Positions 1-62,837 of a stretch of DNA of 64,000 nt are shown here, in pieces. The stretch is from a virus. Position numbers and translations under genes: made by a program. The stretch covers positions 62,001 through 126,000 of IMG/VR virus record IMGVR_UViG_3300010885_044017. One strand, given 5' to 3'. Each line of letters opens with the position of its first letter. Within the stretch, counting starts at the first letter, position 1. The notes beneath the pieces were generated by a model. It made no database searches, was not told the DNA's origin, and saw only the letters and a list, made by a program, of their open reading frames with translations.

Positions 1-927
1 GTCGGCCCAGGCAAGTAGCTCATCTAAGTAGTAGACATTCTGTATATTAATAGTGAAACATAACTGTGTAGTAATAGAACCGTGGCGAAATGTTCTAAAA
101 CCATGTATTTTGTCAACTATTGTATTTGCTTGATCCCATTTTGCACCGTAGCGTTCATATTCAAATCTATCCCCAACATTGTCAACGCTAAACGCAATAT
201 CCACACGGCCGAACTCGTCCCATAAATTAAAATGTTCTTGTGAGGGTTCTTGTGTGGCATTGGTGTTGTAATGAATGTCAATATGCTTGCTGTGTCCACG
301 CAACACTGCATACTTTAAAAGATCAAAATGTTCTTCAATCAGCCAGGGTTCACCGCCGGTGAATTCTATATACCGTATATTGGGCAACAATGACCTCATG
401 TTGTCCCAGAATGTAGCAGTCTTGCGTGGCCATGCACCCTGTCGTAACCAGGTATAGGCTATGTGTGATTTTTTGTCTACGCCTGCGGGCAAGTAGGCCA
501 TTTCCTCTTCAGCCCACTTGCTGCTACTCCACGAGCCACATATACGACATTTGAGATTGCAAATGTTTCCCAGTTTCAAATCCACAAACCACAGTTGATC
601 CGGGTCATCGTTTGCCCAGTCCACTTTTGGGTATAATTCCTTTAGTCTTATCTGTGTGTGTATTCTTTTGCTGGCTCGGCCAGCGGCTTCTTCGTCCCAA
701 CAACGTGTACAGGTGGCAGGCTTTGCACCTGCACGAAATTGCCTACGTAACTCCTGCATATACTCACTGTGATACGCAGTTTCAAGATCGGTGTTGTTTA
801 AATCGTACTTGACTCCTTGCTCATCTGGGATCTCATCATGAGCCAAACAGCAAGGCCGTACAGTGCCCATGGGACTGGCCTCCACACTGATCCATGGTAG
901 CATACAAATTGTGTCAGGAAGGGTCAT
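1..927 (-). CDS. Radical SAM protein with N-terminal twitch-like domain (partial, C-terminus outside window)
   Basis: The frame is open from an ATG at 927 to the window edge (309 codons), so the C-terminus is missing. The N-terminal ~80 residues have the twitch-type cysteine pattern: an IC-x3-PW start near residue 8, a PCC near 26, then CTRC at 73-76. The radical SAM cluster motif CNLKCRIC follows, with Cys123, Cys127 and Cys130 (CX3CX2C) expected to bind the 4Fe-4S cluster that cleaves S-adenosylmethionine. A TGGEPWL motif about 65 residues later is the usual SAM-binding GGE. Its start overlaps the stop of the upstream gene by 14 bases, so it is the downstream member of a translationally coupled operon. 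It is closest in layout to the proteins at 914-2230 and 46704-47828. The substrate is unknown; related twitch/SPASM enzymes act on peptides or sugars. Confidence 0.88.
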   Translation of the reverse strand, partial: MTLPDTICMLPWISVEASPMGTVRPCCLAHDEIPDEQGVKYDLNNTDLETAYHSEYMQELRRQFRAGAKPATCTRCWDEEAAGRASKRIHTQIRLKELYPKVDWANDDPDQLWFVDLKLGNICNLKCRICGSWSSSKWAEEEMAYLPAGVDKKSHIAYTWLRQGAWPRKTATFWDNMRSLLPNIRYIEFTGGEPWLIEEHFDLLKYAVLRGHSKHIDIHYNTNATQEPSQEHFNLWDEFGRVDIAFSVDNVGDRFEYERYGAKWDQANTIVDKIHGFRTFRHGSITTQLCFTINIQNVYYLDELLAWAD

Positions 928-2230
928 ATTGTTGTATCGCCTTTAATTCTGGAAACACTGCAAAGAAATCTTCACTGCGTACTTGATCTATTAGATTATT
1001 AGTTTTAAAGAAACTAGGTAATTCATGTGTGCTGTCTTGTGCCATCATAAAGTTGACTACACCTTCGTACCCCGAAGTGGCACGGGATAATGTATCCAAG
1101 GGACGTAACCATTCTAAATGTGTTTGAATTTTATCTTGTGCTTGCAATTTTAACGGTTCAGGCAGTACATCTACACGATAGCGATGTGGATGTTGTAGTA
1201 TGTTTATGTTCCAATCCATTGGGCGTAACAGTCCCAGATCCACCCATTCTCTATGAAAGTCTGTGATGTGCAACACGTTCATCATGCTGACTGTACTCGA
1301 TACATAGAAATCCACGTTGGGACAAATCTTCAACATACGCTCACGGTTCTCTACAGTTTCTTTCCAGTTTTGCCCTTTGCGTATGTACTCTCCACGCTGA
1401 TAACTACCATCAAGGCTGGCACCTATGCTGACACAGTCAAACAGTTTCCACATCTCAAGTACATCACGACCTTTGAATTTGAGTTCACTGAAGTTTGTGT
1501 TATAAATTAGTCGTACATGAAACATTTCACGTCGAACCAGCTCGTCTAACACTTTCCAATGTTCTTCCATGATCAGGGGTTCGCCGCCGGCCCAGTAGAT
1601 TTGTTCCAAGTGAGGAATGTGCTCTTGCATCTGTTGCCACATGTCACCTTTGTCTCGTCCGGCATACATTATCTGTGGATGCTTCGGATCCCATCCTGCG
1701 GCCTTTTCGTCTTTGTGCCAATTGCTAGAGAAGATACCACCACAAGTTCTGCAGGCAAAATTGCAAAGGTTACTGAAGCGAATGTCGTAGTAGCGTAATT
1801 TAAAATCATCGTACTGACCATCGGGCCGTGTGTTGTCCACTAGGCCAATATGATGTCCAAAGTTTTTGTTAGCACTTTCTCTCATACTAAACAAGCGACT
1901 TTTCTCTTGTTCGTAACATTTAGTACATTCTTTTGATGGAACGTTGTTCAGCATGTTGACTCGCATTTGTTTCAGCGGTGCATCATTCCATATTTCACGC
2001 ATGGTGTGTGTTTTGAGATTGCCAACAGGATGATCGGGCTCACTTAAACAACAGGGATAAGCACGACCATCCGGGAAGGCATGCATGTGTATCCAAGGGA
2101 TCATGCAGAACTCATCGCTTTTTACTAGTCTATCAAGTTGATCTGGTGTTAATTCTGATTCTTTGATATAAATGGGCTTGCGGGCACCGTAGTTGTAATT
2201 TTTGTAATAATCTTCTATGTTGTCTGCCAT
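914..2230 (-). CDS. Radical SAM protein with N-terminal twitch-like domain
   Basis: This 438-residue protein has a twitch-like cysteine region first: FCMIPW at 41-46, PCC at 59-61 and ECTKC at 101-105. The radical SAM motif CNFACRTC follows with Cys156, Cys160 and Cys163. WAGGEPL about 60 residues on is the SAM-binding GGE segment, and the region after it has the regular beta/alpha pattern of a TIM-barrel core. The reaction is not identifiable; by family it should generate a 5'-deoxyadenosyl radical, with the extra cysteines probably holding an auxiliary cluster. Its start overlaps the preceding SGNH hydrolase stop by 16 bases and its stop overlaps the next radical SAM start by 14, so the three are translated as a coupled set. 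The neighbourhood suggests glycan or surface modification. Confidence 0.88.
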   Translation of the reverse strand: MADNIEDYYKNYNYGARKPIYIKESELTPDQLDRLVKSDEFCMIPWIHMHAFPDGRAYPCCLSEPDHPVGNLKTHTMREIWNDAPLKQMRVNMLNNVPSKECTKCYEQEKSRLFSMRESANKNFGHHIGLVDNTRPDGQYDDFKLRYYDIRFSNLCNFACRTCGGIFSSNWHKDEKAAGWDPKHPQIMYAGRDKGDMWQQMQEHIPHLEQIYWAGGEPLIMEEHWKVLDELVRREMFHVRLIYNTNFSELKFKGRDVLEMWKLFDCVSIGASLDGSYQRGEYIRKGQNWKETVENRERMLKICPNVDFYVSSTVSMMNVLHITDFHREWVDLGLLRPMDWNINILQHPHRYRVDVLPEPLKLQAQDKIQTHLEWLRPLDTLSRATSGYEGVVNFMMAQDSTHELPSFFKTNNLIDQVRSEDFFAVFPELKAIQQYDPS

Positions 2231-2955
2231 GTCAATATATTTCTTTCAGCCAAAAATGGCATTGCTATTGCTTTAGTCCAAGTTTCGTGTCCTTGCATAC
2301 TGGGATGGAACTTATCATCTTGCAATAAATCTAGATCTCTACAGTAGTCACCTAAGCATGGTACTATCCATTTTGTTTTATCAATCGATAAATTCAAGTC
2401 TGTTAATTCTTTATTGTAATCGACCCATAACTCTTTGGTATTCTTGATATCTGTTATCGATGAGTAATAGAATTCAAATCCTTTTACTGTTAGGTAGTTA
2501 GACAAATTTGACATTGATAACCAACTGTGTAATGCAAAACTGTGCGAGCTTTGATATTTGCTGTATTCAACTAGTGTTTGCTCAATATGCGTTCTGCGTT
2601 TGGGGTGCCACCAACTACCGCCAAGAACCAACTCATTGTAACCATCATAATTGTAAGTAAATGGGTATGCATTTTTAAAATTTGATAACGACTTGTCTGT
2701 TATCCAATCTATACGTGCCACTCCCGACCACATGGCCATAACTAATGTGTCAGCAGGATCTAAATTGTGTTGTTCAATATATAGCATGATGCTATTGGCA
2801 ATGTGAGTGTTGCCAGCACCCGGTATGGCTAGGTTAATAATATTCATTCCAGTCCACACTGCTAAATCATTTGCCCAAGCAAAATGCTCTTCACAGTCAT
2901 TATGTGTAAAACTGCACCCCGAAACTAGTAGTGTTTTATATTTAGAACGAGTCAT
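2215..2955 (-). CDS. SGNH/GDSL-type hydrolase
   Basis: This 246-residue protein has the SGNH landmarks. A GCSF block at 13-16 carries the likely nucleophile Ser15. A GAGN segment lies near residue 66, and a C-terminal FHPSMQGH block supplies the catalytic Asp/His region. SGNH enzymes remove or transfer acyl groups (often acetyl) on sugars or lipids. There is no signal peptide, so it probably acts in the infected cell's cytoplasm. It is sandwiched between radical SAM genes with 14- to 16-base overlaps on both sides, which ties it to the same pathway. Similar stand-alone SGNH genes occur at 6607-7326 and 44888-45640. The substrate is unknown; acyl transfer is as plausible as hydrolysis. Confidence 0.78.
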   Translation of the reverse strand: MTRSKYKTLLVSGCSFTHNDCEEHFAWANDLAVWTGMNIINLAIPGAGNTHIANSIMLYIEQHNLDPADTLVMAMWSGVARIDWITDKSLSNFKNAYPFTYNYDGYNELVLGGSWWHPKRRTHIEQTLVEYSKYQSSHSFALHSWLSMSNLSNYLTVKGFEFYYSSITDIKNTKELWVDYNKELTDLNLSIDKTKWIVPCLGDYCRDLDLLQDDKFHPSMQGHETWTKAIAMPFLAERNILTWQTT

Positions 2956-3280
2956 ACCATTCTGCTAGGTTGGGAAATGTTGTTGTAAAGTTTTTGCCTC
3001 TGCGTTGGTCGTATTGTGTATAAAATTTCTTAAAGTCCTGTTGTAATACGCTTTGTTCTGCTGCACCCACATGCGGAGTTTTGACTACATCTAAATAGTC
3101 TATCAAGCGTTGTACTTGATTGGTTTCAAATTGATGTAATAACTGATTGTTTTTATTTGTGTTGAACCATGCTTGTAATTTAAGTTTATAGCCGTTGCGT
3201 ATGTCATCTGGCAACACTAAAGGACTTTGAAAACTTGGAAAGCGTAATATATAGTGAGAATGTAGGGAAGTCTCGGCCAC
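2942..3280 (-). CDS. C-terminal fragment of frameshifted radical SAM protein
   Basis: The frame opens at a GTG and encodes 112 residues, but it is best read as the displaced C-terminus of the radical SAM protein at 3204-4328. Its end (Q-x-DFKKFYTQYD-x-RR, then T-T-FP) matches the end of the neighbouring paralogue at 4288-5673 (DFYRFFNEHDKRR, then LTTFPEM). Its beginning continues the alignment where the other frame stops matching. Joining the two by removing one base gives a 461-residue protein, exactly the paralogue's length. The joined stop at 2942 overlaps the SGNH hydrolase start by 14 bases, as at other junctions in this operon. An independent small gene is unlikely. Confidence 0.7.
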   Translation of the reverse strand: MAETSLHSHYILRFPSFQSPLVLPDDIRNGYKLKLQAWFNTNKNNQLLHQFETNQVQRLIDYLDVVKTPHVGAAEQSVLQQDFKKFYTQYDQRRGKNFTTTFPNLAEWYDSF

Positions 3281-4328
3281 ATAGGTCTTTCCACTCCAGG
3301 CATTGATCCAAAAAATCAGTTAAACTATCCAAGCATAATGCGTTGATGGTACACATAATGTGAAATCCTTCTAGGTCAGCATCACGCAACACCTGTTCCA
3401 CATTGGCAGTCCATGTATCCCATACCAGCCCATCACGAATGTATTCGCTTTGTACACCTGTTGCTTCGTTACTGGTGTACAGGTGAAAATGCTTGATGCT
3501 GTGGGCGGCCGCAACAAGTCGATCAATCAATTCTGGTTTGGCGCCAAGATTGCTGTTGATGGCAAACCGCATGTCAGGGTTGACTCGACTGTTGTTGTTC
3601 TTGAACCATTCCAATAATCTCCAGGTGTCGCCCGACATCAGTGGCTCTCCACCAGTTAATCGAAGCTCCTGAAGTGTGCGATGGAGATCTGACTCCCACC
3701 ATGCAAAGAACGCTTCAACGTAAGGATTACTTTCACCAAAGCGATAAAGCTGACTACTTGCATGATTATGAGTGTAATGATTCCTACCGTCTGAAGTGAG
3801 GCCGGTATAAGCACCCATGGTGTCAATATCTTTAACCCAAGTGCTGCTGAAAGCAGGGTTACAGTAACTACACCCAAAATTGCATGTGCGATCAAAAGCA
3901 ATTTCAAGCGTTTGTAAATCCACATCTGTGCTGGCTGGCCTAGCGAATGCATTTCTCAAATCCTCATCTGAATATATAACTGTTTTGTAAACTCTATCAC
4001 TTATGTTGTCTCGCCCGATGTCTTCAATCTTCCAACAGTACTCACAACCTGCGGGACGTTCTCCGCGTTGCATCTGTTCGCGTTCCATTTTTTTCCGTTG
4101 TGTGTTGTGTATGGCCTTGGGATTGGTTCGAATCTCGTCGATATCTATGGCATGTGGTAATGGATGATGACAACTGGTGGTTTGACCTGATCCCAACCAT
4201 ATGGTGGCGTTGTACCATTTGGCCGCACAAAAGCTTTCGCTCTTGATGTCAATTACTCTTTTTTTGTATTCTAAGTCGGTCTCATTGTCAATTCTTGGCA
4301 TGGTATTCACATTCTTTCCAAAATTCAC
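3204..4328 (-). CDS. Radical SAM protein, N-terminal part of a frameshifted gene
   Basis: The 374-residue reading frame carries a twitch-like region (FCAAKW near 33; GCEYCW near 94-99), then the radical SAM motif CNFGCSYC with Cys149, Cys153 and Cys156. LRLTGGEPL is the SAM-binding GGE. It is a clear paralogue of 4288-5673: both share LPHAID/LHAID, GCEYCW/ECSYCW and the (N/S)PxFSSTW block after the cluster. Homology is lost in the last ~20 residues, and the true C-terminus resumes in the +1 frame (2942-3280). One extra base between about 3240 and 3290 explains this. The start overlaps the paralogue's stop by 41 bases. A sequencing insertion, a real mutation and programmed +1 frameshifting are all possible; the first looks most likely to me. 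Confidence 0.82.
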   Translation of the reverse strand: MNFGKNVNTMPRIDNETDLEYKKRVIDIKSESFCAAKWYNATIWLGSGQTTSCHHPLPHAIDIDEIRTNPKAIHNTQRKKMEREQMQRGERPAGCEYCWKIEDIGRDNISDRVYKTVIYSDEDLRNAFARPASTDVDLQTLEIAFDRTCNFGCSYCNPAFSSTWVKDIDTMGAYTGLTSDGRNHYTHNHASSQLYRFGESNPYVEAFFAWWESDLHRTLQELRLTGGEPLMSGDTWRLLEWFKNNNSRVNPDMRFAINSNLGAKPELIDRLVAAAHSIKHFHLYTSNEATGVQSEYIRDGLVWDTWTANVEQVLRDADLEGFHIMCTINALCLDSLTDFLDQCLEWKDLCGRDFPTFSLYITLSKFSKSFSVAR

Positions 4329-5673
4329 GCATTTCGGGAAAAGTAGTTAAAAAATCTGTTTGACGCCTTTTGTCGTGTTCATTGAAGAACCGATAAAAGT
4401 CTGCACGTTGTAGTTTAACATAGTCGGGGTCTAACTTGCAACCTTCCTGCATCCATGCTATGTCTCTGCGTAGGCGTTGTACTTCGTAGTCTTTAAAACC
4501 TTGGAATGGATCTTCCTCTGTTTCCAAGTTCAGTTCCATCCAGTCGGACACACGTTCCAACACACCTGTGTATACAGGTGGCAGTATCTGTAGGCTTTGC
4601 CAGGTGGGTGTGCGTAGCAAGGGAGTATCAAACCAAACACGTTGATATGTGGTGCTGTGACGTTTTCTTAAATCCAGTATCCATTGCAATTGACGTTGTA
4701 GGCCCAGCACACTTAAATTATTCATGGTGATAATGAATGTCAGACTGTTACGGTGGGGCACTTCTGTCAAATATCTGTTGACATATTCATGTAATCTATT
4801 CATGTTGAGACCATGCCTGATATATTCTGCATGTTTGATGTTGCCAGAATCCAAGCTGACATACTGCATGAAATGTTCTATCTGTATTGCACATAACTGT
4901 TTTACATAGTCCAAATATCGTTCAAACAACGCCTGGTCCACGCTGAAGTTGCTGGTGACATTTAAATGTAGATCTGGTTTTGGCATGGCCAACACATAAT
5001 CAAATACCCGATAAGTGTTGCGGTCCATCAATGGTTCACCACCGGTCATTCTAAAGTGTCGCAGTTTGGGGTACAGTTCTGGCCACCATGACCAAAATGC
5101 CTCTACGTAAGGATTTTCATGACTGGCCGGGATTGGCCTATTACGACCAGTAAAATGACTAGGGTCGTTATGAATTGTTGTAGTTGGGTACCCTCCCCAT
5201 CGATCCACTTCCGCTTGCCATGTTGAACTAAACTGCGGACTACAATAACTGCAAGCAAGGTTACAAGCATGATTAAAATTAACTTCCACATAACTGGGTA
5301 CAACATCTTCATCTCCTCGAGAGTTTTTGATTGCTTCGTAGTGTTCTGCGGCCCACGGTTCTCCTGACCTATAATGTCTGTCGCTTAATTGATCATGTCG
5401 TTCTATGTTCCAACAGTAACTACACTCTGCAGGTTGTTCATTTTTCAACATGATGATGCGTTGCTGTTTCTTGTGTTCGGTGTTGTGTAATGCACTGGGA
5501 TTGAGTTTTACAGCATCAGCATCTATGGCATGCAATGGTGGATGGTAACACGAATTATTGAGACCGGTGGGAAGATGTAGGCTCACTTGTTGCCATTTGG
5601 CCAAGCAGAGTGAGTTGCCAAGTTTTGCTTGCATCTCTTCGGCTGCTGACATGAATACGCTTTTATCCAACAT
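4288..5673 (-). CDS. Radical SAM protein with N-terminal twitch-like domain
   Basis: This 461-residue protein is intact. A twitch-like segment (CLAKWQQ near 23, SCYHPP near 41, ECSYCW near 83-88) precedes the radical SAM motif CNLACSYC at Cys137, Cys141 and Cys144. FRMTGGEPL supplies the SAM-binding GGE. The C-terminal ~110 residues after the barrel form a helical tail ending in a conserved T-T-FPEM segment that is also present in the frameshifted paralogue downstream. It is an internal duplicate of that gene and the best template for judging the frameshift. It overlaps the upstream glycosyltransferase-like gene by 11 bases. The function is presumed S-adenosylmethionine-dependent radical chemistry on an unidentified substrate. 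Confidence 0.88.
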   Translation of the reverse strand: MLDKSVFMSAAEEMQAKLGNSLCLAKWQQVSLHLPTGLNNSCYHPPLHAIDADAVKLNPSALHNTEHKKQQRIIMLKNEQPAECSYCWNIERHDQLSDRHYRSGEPWAAEHYEAIKNSRGDEDVVPSYVEVNFNHACNLACSYCSPQFSSTWQAEVDRWGGYPTTTIHNDPSHFTGRNRPIPASHENPYVEAFWSWWPELYPKLRHFRMTGGEPLMDRNTYRVFDYVLAMPKPDLHLNVTSNFSVDQALFERYLDYVKQLCAIQIEHFMQYVSLDSGNIKHAEYIRHGLNMNRLHEYVNRYLTEVPHRNSLTFIITMNNLSVLGLQRQLQWILDLRKRHSTTYQRVWFDTPLLRTPTWQSLQILPPVYTGVLERVSDWMELNLETEEDPFQGFKDYEVQRLRRDIAWMQEGCKLDPDYVKLQRADFYRFFNEHDKRRQTDFLTTFPEMREFWKECEYHAKN

Positions 5674-6610
5674 AGGTCAATTTAGTTAGAAATTTTTTAT
5701 TGATTAGCAAATTATAATTGTGTTCCAATATTTCTTGCATGTCTGCGTACATGGAACTTATTTCTTGCTGTGATTTAGATGCTATATTATCTATCGATTC
5801 TAATATCATTTTGTATTTTTGTTTTGGTTCATATCCATCGTAATCTTCGCTCCAATAGTCATTAAATGTTTTAAATCCCATTTGCCGTAGATGTATTAGA
5901 AAGCACTTTGGGCCCATTATAATAAATGGTTTTTTAAGCAATATTGGTCTTACTGTTTTTTCAGTAGCAAAAAAAGTTTTACCACTGGTGAATGTTTCTG
6001 CTACAATATCAATTAAAAACTCAGTGTATAATTTGCACAATTGGTCGGTGTGTTGCGTTGTTGTGGCTCCAACAGTATAGTCGTCAAATTCTTTCAGCAG
6101 TGCGGGAAATTTTTTATATGTTTGTATAAAGTTCTCAACCGATGCAGGATCTGTTTCAAACAAGGACTGTAGTTCAAAAAGTGTTCGACTGTCCTCATCA
6201 TGTGGGTTGGCTCGAAAATTTACCATGCTGACTGTCCTGTGATTTGCATACAAGTGACTTGCAATACCAATTCGATGCCATATTGGTCGATTGTACAGAG
6301 CTCCAAACAGCTTAGAGTTATTCCATACATGATACTCTTTGTATTCTTTTTCAATCTGAAAAAATTTAAAGTAAGATTGAGCATTAACTATGTTATAGGT
6401 GTTATGAGATTCAAAAATGTTATTAGATAATATAGTCACTGATTTAAATTTAAATAAATCTAAAATTTTGTATACACCAATAGCATTGAGGCAACATCCT
6501 TCGCTATTAACTGACAACAGTATATCTTTCTCTTGATTGTTCACCAAGAACGACATTAACTCCGATTGATTCCATATAAAATTATCAGCTGGTATTATAA
6601 CAAATTTCAT
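5663..6610 (-). CDS. Putative glycosyltransferase-like protein (TEKT/KPF motif)
   Basis: This 315-residue protein has a characteristic C-terminal block: Glu205, then F-x-TEKT at 214-219, KPF at 227-229, GFKTF at 245-249 and a SEDYDGYE acidic segment. This arrangement (E, TEK, then PF and a GFKTF/YD segment) resembles the nucleotide-sugar site of fucosyltransferase-like GT-B enzymes and recurs in uncharacterised aquatic phage proteins. The N-terminal half is not recognisable. The gene is noticeably more AT-rich than the radical SAM genes beside it, suggesting separate acquisition. The 4-base overlap with the upstream SGNH gene and 11-base overlap with the downstream radical SAM gene place it in the operon. 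The glycosyltransferase assignment rests on motif memory and needs a profile search. Confidence 0.5.
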   Translation of the reverse strand: MKFVIIPADNFIWNQSELMSFLVNNQEKDILLSVNSEGCCLNAIGVYKILDLFKFKSVTILSNNIFESHNTYNIVNAQSYFKFFQIEKEYKEYHVWNNSKLFGALYNRPIWHRIGIASHLYANHRTVSMVNFRANPHDEDSRTLFELQSLFETDPASVENFIQTYKKFPALLKEFDDYTVGATTTQHTDQLCKLYTEFLIDIVAETFTSGKTFFATEKTVRPILLKKPFIIMGPKCFLIHLRQMGFKTFNDYWSEDYDGYEPKQKYKMILESIDNIASKSQQEISSMYADMQEILEHNYNLLINKKFLTKLTYVG

Positions 6611-7326
6611 TCGCGTATCATCAGTCCTTGGATTTTTTCTATCAATAAGTTTGCGTATATTTCATATGCTTCTGGGCTAGGGTGGGACTGATCGGTGACA
6701 TCCCACATGTTGTTGTTTTCTGCAATATCAAGTAAAAATTGATCGACATACATATGGTTCATGTCAAGTTGATTAAACAAATGCCTATGTCTGTCAAATG
6801 TTTTAAATTTTCTACCAAAACAAAACAAATAAGGAATTGAGTTTGCTTTTAAATAACTTTGTAGGGAGATCATTTTTATTAATAAATGATATGTTTGCTC
6901 TGATGACCCAATATATTGATAATAATTTTCAAATACCTTGACTATATTTGGATCTCTGTCTTGATTAACAGCATATCCGCAACCAAAGATCCAATCTTTT
7001 TCTACATAATCTTGATCATTAATCGGATAAATTATTTTACCAGGCCAGTCATTCTGTTTGTATTGATAATTTGATGTAAATATTGTATTATTAAATAATT
7101 CAATATTTTGCACTTTATAATCAATACGTATAAAAGGTACCCACTGTACAATAACTAAATCGTATGTTCTTTGTGCTAACTCTGATATTGTTGTTTCGTG
7201 TAGATAAGTATTACCGGCACCAGCTTGTGATAGGTTTACAATATTACTATTAAATTTTTTTTGTATGGCGTACGGCCAGCTAGTGGGTCCACGACTAATC
7301 GAACCTCCATTAATAAGTAAATTCAT
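6607..7326 (-). CDS. SGNH-like hydrolase
   Basis: This 239-residue protein begins directly with an SGNH block: NGGSIS at 6-11 with likely nucleophile Ser9. QAGAGNT near residue 36 is the glycine block, and a C-terminal DVTDQSHPSPEAYEIYA segment supplies the Asp and His. It shows the same three-block layout as the SGNH protein at 2215-2955, with little other similarity by eye. It lacks a signal peptide. The DNA is AT-rich like its downstream partner at 5663-6610, with a 4-base start/stop overlap, so the two look like one transferred pair. An acyl esterase or acyltransferase acting on a phage-made glycan is my inference. Confidence 0.72.
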   Translation of the reverse strand: MNLLINGGSISRGPTSWPYAIQKKFNSNIVNLSQAGAGNTYLHETTISELAQRTYDLVIVQWVPFIRIDYKVQNIELFNNTIFTSNYQYKQNDWPGKIIYPINDQDYVEKDWIFGCGYAVNQDRDPNIVKVFENYYQYIGSSEQTYHLLIKMISLQSYLKANSIPYLFCFGRKFKTFDRHRHLFNQLDMNHMYVDQFLLDIAENNNMWDVTDQSHPSPEAYEIYANLLIEKIQGLMIRE

Positions 7327-7376
7327 TTATGTAAATCCTTTAATTAAACCACCACCGGCTCTATTTGTTAAATTTA

Positions 7377-8273
7377 TCATTCTCTTGCCATGGGACCAGT
7401 ATTTCTAAACTGCGATTTGTAATGATGTTTGAAGAATCTACTGGCATCAGCCGACATGTCTACAATAGGCAATCCCAAGCGTGTGCGTAAGGTTTCTCCC
7501 ACACTGGCACATTGATCTGGGCCGTCTTGTTTAAAACTTTGCCATAATCTTGCCAATACATCAAAGTCTTGTACATCTCGATAGTTCCACTTTTCTATCA
7601 TGGTCATGTATGTGCCAAGTCTTGCTCCGTATATTGCCCATGATCCGTTTTCGACATCGGCGCCCACAGTTTGCCAAATGCATAAATGATCATAGTTGCG
7701 ATTGTGTACACGTCTTTCAAATTCGGGCATGTTGGGCCTTGCGCCACGATCCAAACACATCTTGACACCTTCGCGGAATCCAGCTCGCCATGCCTGTTCA
7801 GGTGTGGCATTGGGATAGGTAGTCGAATAACAATCGTGCATGGCCCAGTAATTAGGATAAAAACAAAACTCTACATCATTCTCTGCAGAACCATCCGTGG
7901 CTTCGTGGGTACGCATGTTGTATATAAATTCTCGAGTCCAACAGCTGACACCACCGTTGCCATACATCAATCCATTTATGTGATTTTTAGCCCGCCATCT
8001 AAATACACAGTCACGATTGGTATCGTCTAGCTCTAGTTGTAGATTAAAAAATTCAGGGTCAGGAATGTTGTCACCATCAATTAATACAAAGCGATCAGTG
8101 TCACTGGCCGCTGCCGCTGCCTTGTGTGCAGCATCCGATCCTTTGACTCCATCTACTCGCTTGGCCCAAGGCACCATGTTTTGTACTCTAATCCAATTGA
8201 TTTCTCGATTGGGTTCATTGTAGGTTAAAAAGATGCAATCTAAATCTGCAACGTCAATGATTTCTGTGGTCAT
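7377..8273 (-). CDS. GT-A-fold glycosyltransferase-like protein
   Basis: This 298-residue protein opens with a beta-strand and FLTYNEPN segment, then an NW-x-R helix. The A-x-RVDGVKG and AHKAAA segments and a FVLIDGDN strand follow, with DGD at 66-68 as the metal-binding DXD motif. This is the nucleotide-sugar fold of GT-A glycosyltransferases and is common in T4-like aquatic phages. The next part (GLMYGNGG, then FCFYPNYWAMHDCYSTTYPN) is probably the acceptor site. A 50-base gap separates it from the SGNH gene downstream; upstream it overlaps the small gene at 8254-8613 by 20 bases. Donor and acceptor are unknown; virion protein, DNA base or glycan are all possible. Confidence 0.75.
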   Translation of the reverse strand: MTTEIIDVADLDCIFLTYNEPNREINWIRVQNMVPWAKRVDGVKGSDAAHKAAAAASDTDRFVLIDGDNIPDPEFFNLQLELDDTNRDCVFRWRAKNHINGLMYGNGGVSCWTREFIYNMRTHEATDGSAENDVEFCFYPNYWAMHDCYSTTYPNATPEQAWRAGFREGVKMCLDRGARPNMPEFERRVHNRNYDHLCIWQTVGADVENGSWAIYGARLGTYMTMIEKWNYRDVQDFDVLARLWQSFKQDGPDQCASVGETLRTRLGLPIVDMSADASRFFKHHYKSQFRNTGPMARE

Positions 8274-8613
8274 AATATTCTGTTTCCGAGTATGATTCGC
8301 CAGTCTCTATAATTAATCCAGCGTGATTTTTTACTGTTCGGTAGCCTGTATTGGATTTAGTTAATTTTACACTATAAATGCTGGCTTGGTCAATCTTTAT
8401 TAATTGTCCTTTAACTATGCGATAATCAAAGTATCGTTCATATTTGTCTTTTGATACCACAACATAGTGGTTTGATTCAGGGTGGTCTGCCATACTACAC
8501 ATAACAATCTCGCCCAATTCATTGTAGTGCAATCTATATTCTATTTCAACTTTAGGAATGGGGATGATCAGGCTTTCAACTTGTGCCCAAAAATCACGTT
8601 CGTCTTGATTCAT
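8254..8613 (-). CDS. Hypothetical protein between two glycosyltransferases
   Basis: This 119-residue protein is unrecognised. It begins with an acidic helix (NQDERDFWAQVESL), then alternates short beta-rich segments with many Tyr and Ile residues and ends DHRNH. There is no signal peptide, membrane segment or cysteine motif. It overlaps both neighbouring glycosyltransferase genes by 20 bases and has normal codon use for the operon, so it is very likely real and translated with them. A role as a partner of one of the glycosyltransferases is the only contextual guess. The 20-base overlaps make misplacement of the frame unlikely. Confidence 0.7.
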   Translation of the reverse strand: MNQDERDFWAQVESLIIPIPKVEIEYRLHYNELGEIVMCSMADHPESNHYVVVSKDKYERYFDYRIVKGQLIKIDQASIYSVKLTKSNTGYRTVKNHAGLIIETGESYSETEYYDHRNH

Positions 8614-9439
8614 AATATTCCGTTAACTCTTGGGTGGCATAGGTTTTGTCATGGTAGTGTACTGGATGATATTGATTCAAGTTGTTGATACGTACAACAT
8701 TGCCATCACGTTCATGCACCACTGTGTCCAACCAACTCTGTGTGTCGCTCCAGCCGTTGAAGCCTGACTTCATGTGTACAAAATTTATAAAGTCCATACT
8801 GGGCATAGTAACTGCATCTGTGCCCACTGTCAATGCGGCAATGGCATATATCACATCTGTGCTGGGAGTTTCTTCTGCACAGTTCTTCAATTGCTCTTGA
8901 TACAGATCCCAACACTGTGAAATCAAACCAGCTGTGTTGAAAAAATCCGCTGCCTGTCTTGAATATCTAAAATACATCAAACCGTTGTACACATCGGGTA
9001 AATTATTTTCATCAAACAACTGTCGGTATTTTCTTACACCGGATAGTATGCCGCGATAATTTTTAGCACCAGTGCTGAGACAAACATCGCGTAATCTAAA
9101 TGCTGTCCACCAGTGATCTATGCTTCGCGTAAACAACAGATCGCTTTCCAACTTGACAGTTTCTTTAAACGGAGTAAGAGCAAACACTTGATACTCGTTG
9201 GCAAATCTAGCAGTGGTGGTGTTGTGATCCACAGGTAAATCAATGATGTAATCAAACGTTTTGGTATGGCGATCTTCTACCAGAGCACGAGTTTCAGCGT
9301 CCACTATGACAGCATAACTGTTGTTCTTTTGCGTGGCTTTGACATTCAAGCACTGCAAGTAAGCCAGTTCTAGGTAATTCACTTCTTCAGTATTTTGTGC
9401 AAAGGTAACGAACCCTTGCGGTTCTTTATGCTGACTCAA
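8594..9439 (-). CDS. Glycosyltransferase-like protein (GT8-like, ESD in place of DXD)
   Basis: This 281-residue protein has a GT-A-like first half: a FVTFAQNT strand, a YAVIVDAETR segment, then VKLESDLLF with Glu98-Ser99-Asp100 where GT8 enzymes have DXD. A later NGLMYFR segment and a Asp/Ala-rich helix resemble the acceptor half of the same family. It is a diverged paralogue of the next gene (9426-10250), which keeps a standard DTD. The Asp-to-Glu change at the first metal ligand could preserve metal binding or mark a different donor. The start overlaps its upstream neighbour by 14 bases. It is probably cytoplasmic. The exact substrate cannot be told from sequence. Confidence 0.7.
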   Translation of the reverse strand: MSQHKEPQGFVTFAQNTEEVNYLELAYLQCLNVKATQKNNSYAVIVDAETRALVEDRHTKTFDYIIDLPVDHNTTTARFANEYQVFALTPFKETVKLESDLLFTRSIDHWWTAFRLRDVCLSTGAKNYRGILSGVRKYRQLFDENNLPDVYNGLMYFRYSRQAADFFNTAGLISQCWDLYQEQLKNCAEETPSTDVIYAIAALTVGTDAVTMPSMDFINFVHMKSGFNGWSDTQSWLDTVVHERDGNVVRINNLNQYHPVHYHDKTYATQELTEYYESRRT

Positions 9440-10250
9440 TTATTGCCTCTACCAGTTGTTGAAAATTATCGCTTTGTAAATATTCTTTATCCATCACGTG
9501 TATGCATTGCCGGGGTACAACTATTGCCGTGGCCTGATGATAAATTCTAATTTGCGAATTTATCATTGCCATCCGTTCTATCTTTTGATCAACAGTAAAC
9601 ATGCTCCAGGGTATGCCTTGCGATGCATTCACTGTGTACCCGTTCAATATTATATTGGCTATGGCAAAAGCATAATCATTTCTGTAACTTGTTTCGTGTA
9701 TACTGTACAAACTTTTATAGTAGGAATAGTTTCTTTGCACACGACCAATTAAATCGAAAAACAATCGAGCACGTTCACTGCGTCTAAATAACGCCACAGT
9801 GGCCCAAACAAATGGCAAGGAATTCACTCCCATGGTGCTAGTGTCTATACCCTTTGCTGTTCGATTATCATGCATCAATTTGTAATCAAACTCCGTGGCC
9901 CACAGTTTCAATATGCTGTGGTCCAGTACTAGATAATCTGTATCCAGCAATACTGTTTCATCATAGGGCGATAGTTGGTATGCCAGGTATCTACCAAAGT
10001 TACGCCATTCCACTGGTTGATTGTTTAAGTCGTTGCGAACATTGCCACCGATGGTGTCGACTCTTATGATTTCATCGTATGCAAATTTGGGTTCAGCGGC
10101 GTGGTCAGTGATCAATGTGATGGGTAATTGTAAATGATGTGCAGTTAATCTACTAGTTTGATCTGCTATGGCAACATAATCAACTGTAGCTGTGTTAAAT
10201 GCAAATACTACAACACCCTTAGATTTTTCTAAGTTGTTTAATTTCTGCAT
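9426..10250 (-). CDS. Glycosyltransferase (GT8-like)
   Basis: This 274-residue protein has the GT8-type pattern: VVVFAFNT at the first strand, ITLITDH near 45-50, and ETVLLDTDYLV with the metal-binding Asp103-Thr104-Asp105. After these come MGVNSLPFVWATVALF and a helix rich in aromatic residues. The C-terminal IRIYHQA segment places a histidine where GT8 enzymes bind the metal. It should transfer a sugar from a nucleotide-sugar donor in the cytoplasm. It is the first glycosyltransferase of the operon and overlaps the small leading gene by 32 bases, so a slightly later start cannot be excluded; the chosen ATG leaves about 10 residues before the first strand. Confidence 0.75.
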   Translation of the reverse strand: MQKLNNLEKSKGVVVFAFNTATVDYVAIADQTSRLTAHHLQLPITLITDHAAEPKFAYDEIIRVDTIGGNVRNDLNNQPVEWRNFGRYLAYQLSPYDETVLLDTDYLVLDHSILKLWATEFDYKLMHDNRTAKGIDTSTMGVNSLPFVWATVALFRRSERARLFFDLIGRVQRNYSYYKSLYSIHETSYRNDYAFAIANIILNGYTVNASQGIPWSMFTVDQKIERMAMINSQIRIYHQATAIVVPRQCIHVMDKEYLQSDNFQQLVEAIIESA

Positions 10251-10533
10251 GTTGTTGGTGCCAGGTATTCATTGCTTGTTGATAGTGCTGTTCGCAAATA
10301 GTACGAAACTCATCGCGGTCAACTTCGATTGGATTATGATATGTATCTTCTATGTACAAGGTATCAGCACGATAAGTGGCAACAAATGCCAACAGTTCTT
10401 GTGTAACTTTAAATAATCCACCGTTGTATGCCACGTGCAAATCTGTTTGGATTTTTTCTCTCAGTATTGTTTTGTTAACGTGATAATCGGTGGCTCTGCG
10501 TATTTCGGCAGTGAGTTTTTCTAGTTCAGTCAT
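10219..10533 (-). CDS. Hypothetical helical protein leading the accessory operon
   Basis: This 104-residue protein is unrecognised by function. It starts with a charged helix (TELEKLTAEIRRA), has a central YNGGLFKVTQELLAF helix and a YIEDTYHNPIEVDRDEF segment, and ends in a Gln/His-rich helix. There are no cysteines that would suggest metal binding beyond one near the end. It is the first gene after the likely boundary with the fibre genes and has a possible sigma-70-type promoter just upstream. It overlaps the next gene by 32 bases. The size and composition resemble small proteins frequently found in T4-like aquatic phages, but no role can be assigned. Confidence 0.68.
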   Translation of the reverse strand: MTELEKLTAEIRRATDYHVNKTILREKIQTDLHVAYNGGLFKVTQELLAFVATYRADTLYIEDTYHNPIEVDRDEFRTICEQHYQQAMNTWHQQHAEIKQLRKI

Positions 10534-10539
10534 ATTGCT

Positions 10540-10568
10540 ATTGTAACATTAAAAGCCAATCCAATCAA
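10540..10568 (-). promoter_or_regulatory. Candidate sigma-70-type promoter for the accessory operon
   Basis: Read on the minus strand, TTGATT (10568-10563) is followed after exactly 17 bases by TACAAT (10545-10540). This matches the -35/-10 layout at 9 of 12 consensus positions. Transcription would start at about the ATG of the gene at 10533, giving a leaderless or nearly leaderless message. It lies in the only gap between the fibre genes and the accessory operon. The match could be chance. Confidence 0.3.
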
Positions 10569-10583
10569 CACTATTGGTTGATT
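10563..10583 (-). terminator. Candidate weak terminator hairpin after the fibre genes
   Basis: A perfect 7-bp inverted repeat (10563-10569 with 10577-10583) encloses a 7-base loop, four bases beyond the stop of the gene ending at 10587. On the minus strand it is followed within a few bases by a short TTTT run, so it is at best a weak intrinsic terminator. It overlaps the candidate -35 element of the next operon. Confidence 0.3.
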
Positions 10584-10586
10584 GAA

Positions 10587-11483
10587 TTAGGATATGGTGG
10601 GAGTGCCCCACACATTGGATAAATATGTGGATTCTGGGGGTGTGATGTCTACTCTACTGGTTATATTGAGACTTATTGTGTCGTCCCAAGTGTGGTCCGC
10701 TACTAAGTAACTAATATAAAAATAAACCTGGCTACCATTGGCTCCAGAGGTTGTATCGATGGTAGGAGTGTACAAGCCAATTGATGCAGCATCGGCAGTG
10801 TAGGCTGCTGTTGTGTCAGTTACAGATATAATATTTGTATTAGAAGTTCCTTGATTTCTGTATCCAAATGCAGTGTTATTGGTATTTAATGTAATACCCG
10901 AACCTGAACGTCCAGTATTGGTTGTGTTTCTCACTGTGACTCCGCCCAGTCCTGTGATTAATCTTGCCAGGCTTGAACTGGAACCTGATCCATTGCTGCT
11001 GTTGGTGCCCAGAACCAAAGTCAGCTGTCCGCCGGCATTGAAAAAGTATCTAGCAGCTTGAACACTGGAAAAAGTTACACCTCGACTAAAACCAGTATTA
11101 ACACCTGTGGTACTTGAAACACCTAGAGTAAATGTTGATCCAGTCACTGTGGTTCCCTGTGTGGCATACAAAGCAGCATTGGTGTAAGTGGTGTTGATTT
11201 GAGTTGCCAAGGTACTCAGATAGTTGATGGTAGAGCCAGCAGTGGTGGCACTAATGCCCGATCCAACTCCACTTTGATGATTTCTCACGTTGTTTAATGT
11301 GTTGATCATCGTAGCCCACTGAGTAGCTGTCACTGTTCCGCTTTGACTAACAGTGGATAATGCAGTTTGACCATAGCCAACGGCTCCTGATCCTGTGCTC
11401 CAAACAGTGTTTAATTGGTTTGAGCCATTTAAAAAGTTATTATAATCCGAGGCTTCAATCAAGCCACCTTGTGCATACGACAT
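10587..11483 (-). CDS. Virion structural / fibre-like protein
   Basis: This 298-residue protein is rich in Ser, Thr, Gly and Asn with almost no charge, typical of phage fibre or appendage proteins. The start (MSYAQGGLIEASDYNNFL) resembles virion proteins seen in T4-like phages of aquatic bacteria. The C-terminal part (YFYISYLVADHTWDDTISLNI) looks like a beta-sandwich. It lies last in the fibre block, ten bases after the next fibre gene's stop. A receptor-binding or decoration role is inferred from composition and position only. Confidence 0.65.
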   Translation of the reverse strand: MSYAQGGLIEASDYNNFLNGSNQLNTVWSTGSGAVGYGQTALSTVSQSGTVTATQWATMINTLNNVRNHQSGVGSGISATTAGSTINYLSTLATQINTTYTNAALYATQGTTVTGSTFTLGVSSTTGVNTGFSRGVTFSSVQAARYFFNAGGQLTLVLGTNSSNGSGSSSSLARLITGLGGVTVRNTTNTGRSGSGITLNTNNTAFGYRNQGTSNTNIISVTDTTAAYTADAASIGLYTPTIDTTSGANGSQVYFYISYLVADHTWDDTISLNITSRVDITPPESTYLSNVWGTPTIS

Positions 11484-11492
11484 TTTTATTCC

Positions 11493-12824
11493 TTACGAAT
11501 TTAGTTTTACCACAGCTTCGATTGTGCCTGATCCCGAATCTAGTTTATCTTCCAATGCTCGCCCAATTACATTCCATGCGGTAATTTCATTACGTGCACC
11601 GGCTCTTGCCCTACCGTTTCCTGCTGAAACTAATCTATCACCTTTGCGTACAACACCGGTTACTTGAACAGGAACACGACCTTGTACTGCCACAGGAGGA
11701 TGTGTTTCGTTTGACCCAGCTCCAGAATTCATTAAGTAAGCTGCTTTAGTACTTATGACTCCAAACACACTTTCACTTAATTCTTGATCAACTACTGTAA
11801 TTTCTGCCGAGCCACCCAATGCCACCACTGTGCCCGCTGTCATGGGCTGATCTGCGGCAAAACGTTCAGCTAAGTCAGCGTATTGTGCGTGTATTGCTGT
11901 GCCATAAATGTTGTTCCACCAGGCTGTGGTTGAACCTAAATTGTATGTTAAATTAGCTGTAGGAGTTATGTTGCCTGCGGTGGTAACTGTGGTAAATGCA
12001 CCCGCGGCCGGAGTTGCATTGCCAACAATACCATTGAAACTGCCACTGGTTAAAGTTGTAAATGCTCCTGTGCTGGGCACAGCATTGCCAATTGGGGTGG
12101 AGTTGATGGCTGCAAAACTAGCAACTCCGCTGTTGCTGACAGTGGCAATGGGCGAACCATTTAAAGTTGCGGTGCCGGTTATTGCCAACCCTTGTCCAGA
12201 AATACTACCTCCAATGGTAACATTATTGGCTATGGTAAATCCTGGTGCTATTGTAGTTTGACCCAATACTGGCGTTGACACAGTGAATGAGGTTGACTCT
12301 GTACTAACCACTGCAGCAAGTTTGTTGTTGACCACAAGGTTACCCACATTGTGTATTGCTGAAAGTGGGTCTGTTAATTGATTGTTTACAAATTGTGTCA
12401 CAGCTGAACCTGGAGGAATAGCCGGGCCGATGGTAATCCAGGCAGTTCCGCTGTAAACATTTAATGTACTGGCAGTGGTATTCCACCAAAGATCTCCGGC
12501 TATGGCATTACTTGGACTGGTGCTACCCGGAGCAGAATGTGCTATTTCTTTCCAAGCTGTGCCATTATAAACTTTTAACACAGCGTTTGAAGTATCCCAC
12601 CAAATTTGTCCAGTGGTTGGGCTAACAGGTGCAGTACTGTAGGCAAAATTTTCCAATAATTTTATGAAATTTTCGTTTAGGTAAAATCCATAACTGGCTT
12701 TGTTTTTTCCAATTAAATTGACACTGGCCACAGCAGCGTTGGCATCGATGTCTGGTCCGTTGGCTACACCATCAGCTAAATTTATTAAAGTAGATCCGTT
12801 TGTTTTTGTTAAGCTATACGCCAT
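11493..12824 (-). CDS. Fibre-like virion protein with repeated N-terminal module and C-terminal peptidase G2-like domain
   Basis: The first ~75 residues (L-x-DG-x-A-x-GPDI, LIGKN-x-ASYG, NENFIKLLENFAY) are shared with 14808-15968, so the two are paralogues. Two copies of a W(W/Y)(D/N)T-x4-LKVY-x-GTAW-type repeat follow near residues 73-95 and 112-135. The middle is low-complexity Gly/Thr/Ala. The last ~150 residues (AQYADLAERF, GTVVALGG, ESVFGVIS, PVAVQGRVPVQVTG) resemble the domain fold of peptidase G2/pre-neck appendage C-termini, which can be chaperone-like and self-cleaving in some phages; cleavage here is not shown. It probably forms a trimeric fibre. It sits in the fibre block, transcribed with its neighbours. 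Confidence 0.75.
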   Translation of the reverse strand: MAYSLTKTNGSTLINLADGVANGPDIDANAAVASVNLIGKNKASYGFYLNENFIKLLENFAYSTAPVSPTTGQIWWDTSNAVLKVYNGTAWKEIAHSAPGSTSPSNAIAGDLWWNTTASTLNVYSGTAWITIGPAIPPGSAVTQFVNNQLTDPLSAIHNVGNLVVNNKLAAVVSTESTSFTVSTPVLGQTTIAPGFTIANNVTIGGSISGQGLAITGTATLNGSPIATVSNSGVASFAAINSTPIGNAVPSTGAFTTLTSGSFNGIVGNATPAAGAFTTVTTAGNITPTANLTYNLGSTTAWWNNIYGTAIHAQYADLAERFAADQPMTAGTVVALGGSAEITVVDQELSESVFGVISTKAAYLMNSGAGSNETHPPVAVQGRVPVQVTGVVRKGDRLVSAGNGRARAGARNEITAWNVIGRALEDKLDSGSGTIEAVVKLNS

Positions 12825-14807: not shown

Positions 14808-15968
14808 TTAGATTTGAAACCAAAAATCTCCCACACTACCATCTAATACAGTGGGAGTCACTGTGCTGACAAATTGATGACTGCCTTGCCACAGTGCCTG
14901 TGTACTGGCCGCAATGGCCGCTTGTGTAAATGCTGTTGTTGCAATTCTAGTGGTGTTGTCTGTAGCTACAGGTGTAGTCGAGTTGGGAGTACCTGTTAGT
15001 GTTGCACTGGCTATGGGTGCCAATGGAGTAGTTGCTGTGACTATGCTGGTGTCAACATAATTTTTTGTTGCAACACCTGTGTTAGAGATGGGATCTCCTG
15101 CCACTGTTACTAACCCAGTTGCACCATCAATCGTTACAGTTGGTGTAGTAATTCCACTAACATTGTTGTATAAAGTGATATTGGCACCTAGTACAGGATT
15201 GCCGATGGAAGCTGCACCGCCCGGGGCTGATTTAAATGTAAAGTTTCCGCCACCGATTGATATGTTGGCCGCAAAGGAGGAAGTGATGTCAGTTCTTGCA
15301 TAGTTGGTAGCAACAATGTTGCCCAAGTTTTGACTGTTAGTGGCTGTACCAATGAAAATGCCTGAAAGGGCAGTGCTCATGTTGATACCTGTTTGTATTG
15401 TAGCAAATCCTGTCAAGGCTGACAGTGGAGTAAAAGCTGCATCGTTGCTAATAATACTGGTTATCACACCATTGATATACATTTTAATCACAGTGTGACT
15501 GATATTGCCGGTATCTATTATGTGATCAACAATGGCACCAGAAACGCCATCCACTTGACTGTAACCAGGACCAATTGTAGTCCAAGTGCTGCCGTTGAAC
15601 ATTTTAAGTTGATAATTTACCGTGTCCCACCATTCAGCACCAATGACTGTTGAAGTGGGTTGTGTGTCTGACACAGTTAGTGGACTCACTGCTGTCCATG
15701 TGTTGCCCGAATATACCTTTAAGAAACTAGTGGATGTATCGTACCATATTTCTCCTGTCAAAGGATTTAACGGTGGAGTATCATAGGCAAAATTTTGTAA
15801 TAATTTTATAAAATTTTCATTTTGTATCAAACCGTATGTGGCATAATTTTTACCAATCAAATTGATGTCAGTTTTATTTAATCCGGGGTTGACATCAGGT
15901 CCGTCGGCTGTGCCGTCGGGTAACTGTAATATTATTGTTCCATCTGTTTGGGTAATAGTATAGCTCAT
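14808..15968 (-). CDS. Fibre-like virion protein, paralogue of 11493-12824
   Basis: This 386-residue protein shares the N-terminal module DG-x-ADGPDV, LIGKNYATYG, NENFIKLLQNFAYDTPPL with 11493-12824, including the WYDTSTSFLKVYSGNTW repeat and a second WWDTVNYQLKMFNGSTW copy. The rest is low-complexity Thr/Ala/Ile-rich sequence with SIGNPVLGAN-like beta segments. It lacks the peptidase G2-like C-terminus of its paralogue and ends in LDGSVGDFWFQI, similar to the SDGDIWYRI end of 17392-18438. The gene pair flanks the polyglycine adhesin, so duplication around it is likely. It is probably a trimeric fibre or fibre-tip component. Confidence 0.72.
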   Translation of the reverse strand: MSYTITQTDGTIILQLPDGTADGPDVNPGLNKTDINLIGKNYATYGLIQNENFIKLLQNFAYDTPPLNPLTGEIWYDTSTSFLKVYSGNTWTAVSPLTVSDTQPTSTVIGAEWWDTVNYQLKMFNGSTWTTIGPGYSQVDGVSGAIVDHIIDTGNISHTVIKMYINGVITSIISNDAAFTPLSALTGFATIQTGINMSTALSGIFIGTATNSQNLGNIVATNYARTDITSSFAANISIGGGNFTFKSAPGGAASIGNPVLGANITLYNNVSGITTPTVTIDGATGLVTVAGDPISNTGVATKNYVDTSIVTATTPLAPIASATLTGTPNSTTPVATDNTTRIATTAFTQAAIAASTQALWQGSHQFVSTVTPTVLDGSVGDFWFQI

Positions 15969-58465: not shown

Positions 58466-58488
58466 GACTTTTTGGTAAATACTTTACT

Positions 58489-58713: not shown

Positions 58714-58740
58714 TGTTTTTATAGCAGTTTATAAAAATAC
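58713..58740 (+). terminator. AT-rich hairpin after the small core gene
   Basis: An 11-bp arm at 58713-58723 pairs with 58730-58740 (one G-T wobble) around a six-base loop immediately after the stop. It lacks a U tract, so it is a doubtful terminator; it may instead stabilise the message end or mark processing. Confidence 0.35.
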
Positions 58741-62808: not shown

Positions 62809-62837
62809 ATCGAAACTGTATTTGTATCAAACAAAAA

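Follow-up and report, generated by a model that had tools for sequence, protein, structure and literature searches.

A conserved operon of radical SAM enzymes and glycosyltransferases beside a tail-fibre-like gene in uncultivated T4-like phages, with a proposed role in virion glycan synthesis

A module of radical SAM and glycosyltransferase genes is vertically inherited in a clade of uncultivated T4-like phages, and its operon may build a glycan and edit it by radical chemistry, the likeliest acceptor being the phage's own tail-fibre-like protein, TAIL; we give this joint reading about an even chance. The DNA analysed (the window) is a stretch of 64,000 nucleotides, positions 62,001–126,000 of the 151,913-bp virus record IMGVR_UViG_3300010885_044017, and unprefixed coordinates are window positions. 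The genes named in an initial annotation were all found on the minus strand within 1–10533. The window start lies within a longer minus-strand operon that reaches about 53.8 kb of the record and there includes another radical SAM gene, the gene x366, two further SGNH genes, and genes for an O-carbamoyltransferase and an APS-kinase-like protein. The same phage also carries sugar-nucleotide, hexapeptide acyltransferase and DegT genes.

Composition and organization of the operon

The four radical SAM genes initially proposed are confirmed by matches to NF033640 (E 5e-73 to 1e-120), the NCBIfam family N_Twi_rSAM ('twitch domain-containing radical SAM protein'; curated cut-off 170 bits). All genes named here lie on the minus strand: R1 (1–927), which runs off the window (record 61710–62927; E 4e-98 for the full gene); R2 (914–2230; E 1e-120); R3, frameshift-broken in this record; and R4 (4288–5673; E 2e-86), which has an N-terminal twitch domain. 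The first part of R3 (3204–4328) covers NF033640 positions 1–310 and its C-terminal part (2942–3280), in the other frame, positions 300–398; relatives have a single intact ORF of about 450 aa. The 112-aa ORF at 2942–3280 was rejected as a separate gene because it continues the profile of the first part. Five such proteins, R0–R4, belong to the operon core and score 246–403 bits, all above the cut-off, R3 included despite its frameshift. CxxxCxxC and GGEP are kept in all qualifying relatives of R0–R4 (63–80 relatives each), and the N-terminal cluster cysteines in nearly all relatives of the paralogues. By these motifs R0–R4 are members of the radical SAM superfamily, with predicted SAM-dependent radical catalysis. 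R4 is the most conserved core enzyme, with 82% mean column identity and invariant cluster cysteines across 26 sequences, and it has four conserved N-terminal cysteines (C23, C42, C84 and C87); a PDB sequence search with its profile gave no significant match. We know of no reaction assigned to NF033640, which is a sequence family.

Three GT-A-like glycosyltransferases had been proposed, and this held by fold for GTb and by homology for GTa. The GTb (8594–9439) model (pLDDT 80) predicts a GT-A fold of GT8 type: the 50 best fold matches in the PDB are GT8/GT24-type enzymes, including UGGT and LARGE1, and it matches glycogenin with a best E of 2e-8 and probability 1.0, at moderate TM-scores of 0.4–0.6. 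GTa (9426–10250) is assigned as GT8-like through its profile homology to GTb (hhalign 97%); it does not reach the PF01501 cut-off, just 1 of 29 GTa sequences matching that family (E 0.01). D103 and D105 of GTa form an invariant DxD, and E98 and D100 of GTb form ESD in the place where DxD is expected. The claim is weaker for GTc (7377–8273), a putative GT-A-like protein with a weak PF13641 match, a conserved DGDN motif and 76% mean column identity in its alignment. KPF (5663–6610), a variable-slot gene, encodes the protein initially described as TEKT/KPF glycosyltransferase-like; the motif is kept in relatives, the protein has no family or structure match, and it is a possible, unproven glycosyltransferase. 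PDB sequence searches with the GTa, GTb, GTc and KPF profiles gave nothing significant.

Both SGNH proteins expected in the window are present and match PF19547/DUF6071, for which the cut-off is 27 bits. SGNH2 (6607–7326), which occupies the variable slot separating GTc from R4 and is an SGNH/GDSL-type hydrolase or acyltransferase, lies above it (27.5 bits), and the SGNH-type protein SGNH1 (2215–2955), inserted between R3 and R2, lies below (20.1 bits); 2 of the 4 SGNH proteins in the operon reach the cut-off (27.5 and 36.7 bits) and the other two do not. The O-carbamoyltransferase matches both Carbam_trans_N (E 4e-36) and Carbam_trans_C (E 4e-49). The protein x366, also encoded outside the window, has a confident structure model with relatives among phage models only and no PDB match, and its profile found nothing significant among PDB sequences. 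Two small proteins are conserved in alignments of relatives, s104 (10219–10533), which is the first operon gene and has 25 invariant alignment columns, and s119 (8254–8613). PHROG scans gave only noise for s104 and nothing above noise for s119, and s104 has no Pfam or cultured-phage match. No module protein contains a predicted membrane segment, no stretch reaching 1.6 in a 19-residue hydropathy window.

Overlaps of 4–41 bases, as originally described, are found at most joints; the exceptions are a 50-base gap (7327–7376) and a false 77-base overlap between the ORFs 3204–4328 and 2942–3280, which together are one frameshifted radical SAM protein. The further claim that a single unbroken run of overlaps spans the operon is not borne out, given the gap, the frameshift and a separate promoter.

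The gene just before the enzyme operon is TAIL (10587–11483, minus strand), which encodes a Ser/Thr-rich (31%) tail-fibre-like protein with the highest S+T content among the record's proteins longer than 150 aa. TAIL has no family match, and a PDB sequence search with its profile gave nothing significant; it is the candidate acceptor, and it is taken as a fibre because of its neighbours at 11493–12824 and 14808–15968, which match tail-fibre/virion PHROGs. A terminator-like hairpin (10556–10590, minus strand) lies at the end of TAIL and is followed by CTTTT, and hairpins or inverted repeats are found in relatives too. The enzyme operon has a sigma-70-type promoter (10540–10568, minus strand; TTGATT-17-TACAAT with an extended -10) that scores 9/12; scores of at least 10/12 are found in 66 of 114 distinct relatives, compared with 2.3% in shuffles. 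With a conserved sigma-70 promoter and hairpin found, we dropped the operon as a plain continuation of the late tail operon. Its promoter resembles those of the phage's non-structural genes, and several structural genes carry TATAAATA/AATAAATA-type sites in a purely descriptive listing of upstream spacers; a search for TATAAATA late promoters across the whole window gave one site, below chance expectation. Early or separate expression would suit modification of the host surface at least equally, a point against a tail-protein acceptor.

Conservation and inheritance of the module

The prospect that related phages carry these genes scattered, with no co-occurrence, clearly fails: the core order is kept in about 150 uncultivated phage loci, and chance grouping is therefore excluded. 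TAIL, GTa and GTb lie upstream of GTc in 78 of 78 GTc loci and, in the reverse direction, GTa and GTb follow TAIL in 58 of 58 TAIL loci, so that TAIL and the glycosyltransferases are never seen apart in the loci examined. Since the loci all come from a single broad clade, the linkage may partly reflect shared ancestry. R4 is present in 69 of the 70 loci whose downstream sequence extends for 3 kb or more. Insertions cluster in three slots (49/76, 40/78 and 38/65), those at the other core joints being 0/72, 2/75, 4/72 and 6/64. The divergence of the core proteins tracks that of the major capsid protein (Mantel r 0.58–0.86, reached by 0 of 2000 permutations), as expected if the enzymes have a phage-encoded partner; the correlation with the capsid protein is weaker for TAIL itself (r 0.38).

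Hundreds of IMG/VR contigs bear parts of the module, with 413 relatives of R4 and at least 586 of GTc, and no relative of five diagnostic proteins was found in a search of 50,697 cultured phage records. A scan of a genome collection with R4 yielded one true relative, which leaves the module with no known cellular reservoir. The cellular R4 relative is found in a Bdellovibrionia MAG, in a polysaccharide-type gene cluster near methyltransferase, Asn-synthase/GATase and GT2 genes.

Proposed pathway, acceptor and alternatives

The initial proposal that the operon builds or edits a glycan is supported by the GT8 folds, by the O-carbamoyltransferase, SGNH and sugar-nucleotide enzymes, and by the gene contexts in the Bdellovibrionia MAG and in Vibrio phage K566. 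The two GT8-fold transferases and the third GT-A-like protein would assemble a sugar chain, and the five paralogous twitch radical SAM enzymes would use radical chemistry, for example dehydrogenation, epimerisation or deoxygenation, to modify the sugars or the nascent glycan. The O-carbamoyltransferase, SGNH proteins and slot genes would add or remove decorations varying between phages. With TAIL as the acceptor, the virion would carry a glycosylated adhesin. A more specific version, in which at least five radical SAM enzymes acting in series, together with x366, form a vertically inherited core pathway to a carbamoylated tail-fibre glycan with swappable slot decoration, is put forward tentatively, somewhat against the balance of probability.

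TAIL is the most likely acceptor and the host surface its main rival, the evidence on the substrate leaning to the phage's own tail protein. The enzymes might instead build or alter LPS or capsule sugars during infection, blocking superinfection or aiding release. LPS core synthesis typically involves GT8 enzymes, which would suit this role, as would the operon's own sigma-70 promoter, the hypervariable slots and the polysaccharide-type cluster that holds the cellular R4 relative; the same reading has been proposed for pelagimyophage host recognition clusters with glycosyltransferases and radical SAM cassettes (PMC7029224). Host-surface remodelling is nevertheless unlikely, given that the core enzymes follow the capsid gene and show high conservation over many phages, unlike patchy host-directed genes, that the module is always linked to TAIL, and that a membrane-embedded flippase, ligase or Gtr-type protein is missing from it.

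The radical SAM enzymes could also act on a protein backbone in the manner of RiPP enzymes, with TAIL or s104/s119 as the substrate and the glycosyltransferases decorating the same protein. Their N-terminal cluster domain also scores to Pfam SPASM, a domain common in peptide-modifying enzymes, and the genes for two small conserved proteins lie among those of the enzymes. This reading is improbable: the conserved N-terminal cysteines number just four, the count seen in twitch domains; conservation in s104 and s119 extends over the full length and leaves no variable core peptide, and no small peptide with such a core was noted among the conserved genes; and sugar and carbamoyl enzymes predominate. 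The contrast drawn initially, of twitch enzymes acting on sugars and SPASM enzymes on peptides, is only a lead.

The evidence weighs against DNA as the substrate via a hydroxymethyl-pyrimidine route. No gene of PF00303, the thymidylate-synthase-type family to which pyrimidine hydroxymethylases belong, was found in this possibly fragmentary record or in seven other clade records, four of them 320–345 kb, and no TET match was obtained in a search run without a positive control; the module also adjoins tail genes, not replication genes. Placement of sugars on modified bases of the phage genome is very improbable, though carbamoyl and aminated sugars would fit and modification of DNA is within the reach of phage glycosyltransferases (Pyle et al. 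2024, as cited in PMC12619734). Finally, the radical SAM genes might serve unrelated Fe-S or auxiliary host metabolism and owe their location here to chance. Nishimura 2017 related the 12 radical SAM genes of the T4-like ocean phage TARA_ERS488813_N000010 to Fe-S metabolism (PMC5332604). For the present genes this reading is hardly credible and is contradicted by their fixed order with TAIL and the glycosyltransferases across about 150 loci.

On the more specific version, a virion glycan of as yet uncharacterised chemistry would be made by a module known in uncultivated phages only, and if the tail fibre is glycosylated, these phages, a widespread group without cultured members, could diversify their adhesin chemically instead of through its sequence. 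The module, widespread in IMG/VR yet with its diagnostic genes absent from the cultured phage records searched, would then also provide a defined, conserved radical SAM set with a candidate acceptor adjacent, in which new sugar chemistry could be sought. It also offers a concrete handle on the hoarding of radical SAM genes by some aquatic phages, a pattern described since 2017 that still lacks an agreed explanation.

Comparison with known systems

All five operon radical SAM proteins belong to the NF033640 family, well above its cut-off; what sets them apart from the family at large is their occurrence as five paralogues in a constant multi-enzyme group together with glycosyltransferases. The phage O-carbamoyltransferase has a significant sequence match to TobZ, NovN and GdmN, which act on antibiotics, and has both Pfam domains in common with them, but is about 80–200 aa shorter. 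Conversion of O-antigen by gtr-type systems uses a membrane flippase and membrane-bound transferases, none of which is predicted in the module by hydropathy. In Vibrio phage K566, several radical SAM genes of NF033640 type adjoin two GT8 genes and one GT4 gene, but they are only 21–25% identical and in another gene order, and the s104-GTa-GTb-GTc core has no sequence match in that phage.

Mycobacteriophages place phage-encoded glycans on virion proteins, with capsid and tail-tube targets (Freeman et al. 2023, cited in PMC12619734), which is the kind of modification proposed here; the citing paper does not mention radical SAM enzymes, whereas here they dominate and the candidate target is fibre-like. 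Moraphages, large aquatic phages with core glycosyltransferases (PMC12619734), were not adopted as the same lineage, the text mentioning no radical SAM genes. Compared by description, TARA_ERS488813_N000010 likewise combines numerous radical SAM genes in a single T4-like genome, but no glycan operon is described for it (PMC5332604). The pelagimyophage host recognition cluster, a T4-like tail-fibre region, likewise combines glycosyltransferases with radical SAM cassettes (PMC7029224). That region is described as hypervariable, whereas the present phages keep a fixed core order that is passed on together with the capsid gene and concentrate their variation in slots.

Operon layout and enzyme families

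The window covers positions 62,001–126,000 of a 151,913-base virus record. ORF calls over the whole record extend the minus-strand operon past the window to ~53.8 kb of the record, and the genes at window 1–10533 are its upstream part. In transcription order, TAIL (window 10587–11483), a Ser/Thr-rich tail-fibre-like protein, is followed by s104, GTa, GTb, s119, GTc, SGNH2, KPF, R4, R3, SGNH1, R2, R1, x339, R0, x366, SGNH3, SGNH4, CarbT, x230 and kin, all on the minus strand; s104 and s119 are small conserved proteins, R0–R4 twitch radical SAM paralogues, SGNH1–SGNH4 SGNH-type proteins, KPF a TEKT/KPF-motif protein, and x339, x366 and x230 further proteins. Tail genes occupy the DNA upstream, including the gene for a baseplate wedge protein (window 31451–34840) and two that match virion or tail-fibre families (11493–12824 and 14808–15968). 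The nearest cultured matches of the T4-type major capsid protein (61636–62808), 65–69% identical, come from large phages infecting Vibrio, Sinorhizobium, Pseudomonas, Xanthomonas, Erwinia and Serratia.

Every radical SAM protein of the operon belongs by profile match to NF033640, the NCBIfam family of twitch domain-containing radical SAM proteins. CxxxCxxC and GGEP are kept in every radical SAM copy of the relatives and a four-cysteine N-terminal cluster motif in nearly all; invariant cysteines in the alignment of R4 relatives are C23, C42, C84 and C87, and C137, C141 and C144. R3 is split in the record, with NF033640 model positions 1–310 at window 3204–4328 and 300–398 at 2942–3280. In relatives R3 is a single intact frame of ~450 residues; the split may be either a sequencing or assembly error or a real mutation.

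The structure model of GTb, built from 30 sequences (pLDDT 80), finds its best PDB fold matches in glycogenin, UGGT, WbbM, LARGE1 and xylosyltransferase, each a GT-A enzyme, and GTa is homologous to GTb. GTc shows no relation to either by profile comparison and is called GT-A-like only from its DGDN motif and a weak Pfam match. Both carbamoyltransferase domains are recognised in CarbT, which also matches NovN, GdmN and TobZ by sequence; kin matches APS kinase. x366 (record 58282–59382; L009 14282–15382) carries invariant histidines and acidic residues; its confident model (pLDDT 87) has no fold match in the PDB (best E 1.3), and the fold recurs only in ten other phage proteins, of which nine belong to uncultured phages and the tenth to Agrobacterium phage Atu_ph07. 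x366 may possibly represent a new enzyme fold.

Elsewhere in the window, four further radical SAM genes (46704–47828, 47816–48781, 50531–51367 and 51361–52365, plus strand; span 45685–52365) surround genes judged by eye to encode gp47-like (45685–46704) and gp46-like (48757–50538) recombination nuclease subunits; one is NF033640 and the other three match the radical SAM core only. Several unrelated proteins of the phage share an M-x-x-x-E-I-like N-terminal peptide, such as MKIVEILVE or MRITEITTE (record 5798, 6598, 6969, 49417, 149320 and 149802).

Conserved order and transcription

The initial annotation had proposed a possible glycan-modification pathway, and the same gene set, looked for in other phage genomes, does co-occur in fixed order in the R4 and GTc locus sets. 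R4 finds 413 relatives in IMG/VR, the best 80 of these 413 at 72–91% identity, and GTc at least 586; gene order is identical throughout the maps of the two sets of loci, which overlap in some contigs. Among GTc loci with at least 3 kb downstream, 69/70 carry a strong R4 and 70/70 a radical SAM gene; with 4.5 kb upstream, TAIL, GTa and GTb are present in 78/78 and s104 in 76/78. The reverse search from TAIL recovers GTa and GTb in 58/58. Where enough DNA follows R0, x366 is present in 63/63 cases; with 3.2 kb behind x366, SGNH3, SGNH4 and CarbT are present in 9/9 loci.

Insertions fall mainly into three slots, GTc–R4 (49/76 loci), R4–R3 (40/78) and R1–R0 (38/65), less often into R2–R1 (15/70) and TAIL–s104 (7/71), and almost never into s104–GTa (0/72), GTa–GTb (2/75), R3–R2 (4/72) or R0–x366 (6/64). 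In relatives, several slot genes, coding for an AMP-binding enzyme, a DegT-type protein, an SGNH protein and a radical SAM protein, have homologues at 19–29 kb of the record, so these genes seem to form a shared pool. That region (L011 9000–19200) is a second sugar cluster, comprising NAD epimerase, radical SAM, hexapeptide acyltransferase, DegT-type aminotransferase, AMP-binding enzyme and SGNH genes.

The 53-base TAIL–s104 spacer contains a terminator-like hairpin and a sigma-70-type promoter. Promoter scores of at least 10 out of 12 were found in 66/114 distinct relatives versus 2.3% of mononucleotide-shuffled spacers, and nine relatives have perfect TTGACA/TATAAT pairs. By the same test the SGNH3–SGNH4 spacer has no site of at least 10/12, and TAIL2–TAIL spacers have such sites in only 2/15, the two near-identical. 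In a purely descriptive listing, the record's strong sigma-70 sites lie mainly before non-structural genes, and TATAAATA/AATAAATA sites before some structural genes. Given the spacer, its controls and this distribution of sites, the enzyme operon is most likely its own transcription unit. In many relatives an inverted repeat, often followed by a T run, overlaps the −10 box, and its arms vary between phages yet stay complementary; here (window 10534–10590) and in relatives it could be a terminator fused with the promoter, or else an operator.

Acceptor, inheritance and related clusters

In 17 genomes, R4, R3, R2, R1, GTa, GTb, GTc and s104 each diverge in step with the capsid protein when pairwise distances are compared (Mantel r 0.58–0.86; 0/2000 permutations as high), which points to vertical inheritance of the operon core; mean identities are 74% for R4, 68% for R3 and 66% for GTc versus 85% for capsid. 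R4 is present in 7/9 contigs of at least 100 kb, possibly fragments, chosen by capsid similarity alone.

The phage's own tail protein is favoured as the acceptor on five grounds: the TAIL linkage runs both ways, the module is inherited vertically together with virion genes, TAIL has the highest Ser/Thr content of the record (31%; relatives 23–34%), and the module lacks a membrane protein and stands apart from replication genes. The main rival is modification of the host surface, the reading put forward for pelagimyophages (PMC7029224). The sigma-70 promoter speaks against a tail acceptor, as does the chance that the TAIL linkage is a product of shared ancestry. A DNA acceptor is disfavoured, as the thymidylate synthase family, which includes known hydroxymethylases, is absent from this record and seven other clade records, four of 320–345 kb.

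Abundant radical SAM genes were recorded from T4-like ocean phages in 2017 (PMC5332604), and pelagimyophage host-recognition clusters with radical SAM cassettes and glycosyltransferases in 2020 (PMC7029224); a Baltic Sea study annotated viral SPASM/radical SAM-domain genes as ahbD (heme-related) AMGs and termed inferences about such genes rather speculative (PMC9301287). In the open-licence literature we found no description of the fixed operon, its TAIL link, its promoter or x366.

Among 50,697 cultured phage records, s104, GTa, GTc, TAIL and x366 have no relative, and the sole R4 matches are in two Vibrio phages (25% identity). In the genome collection R4 finds a single relative, 45% identical, on a bacterial contig from a Bdellovibrionia MAG; its neighbours are genes for a methyltransferase, two Asn-synthase-type proteins and a GT2 enzyme. 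This MAG encodes six NF033640 proteins above cut-off; some of its twitch radical SAM proteins adjoin other radical SAM genes and one adjoins polysaccharide-type genes (L104 9899–21365; L292, L293). In Vibrio phage K566 (OZ196521.1 161548–168284; L016), radical SAM, GT8 and GT4 genes form a comparable though divergent cluster, a possible laboratory model.
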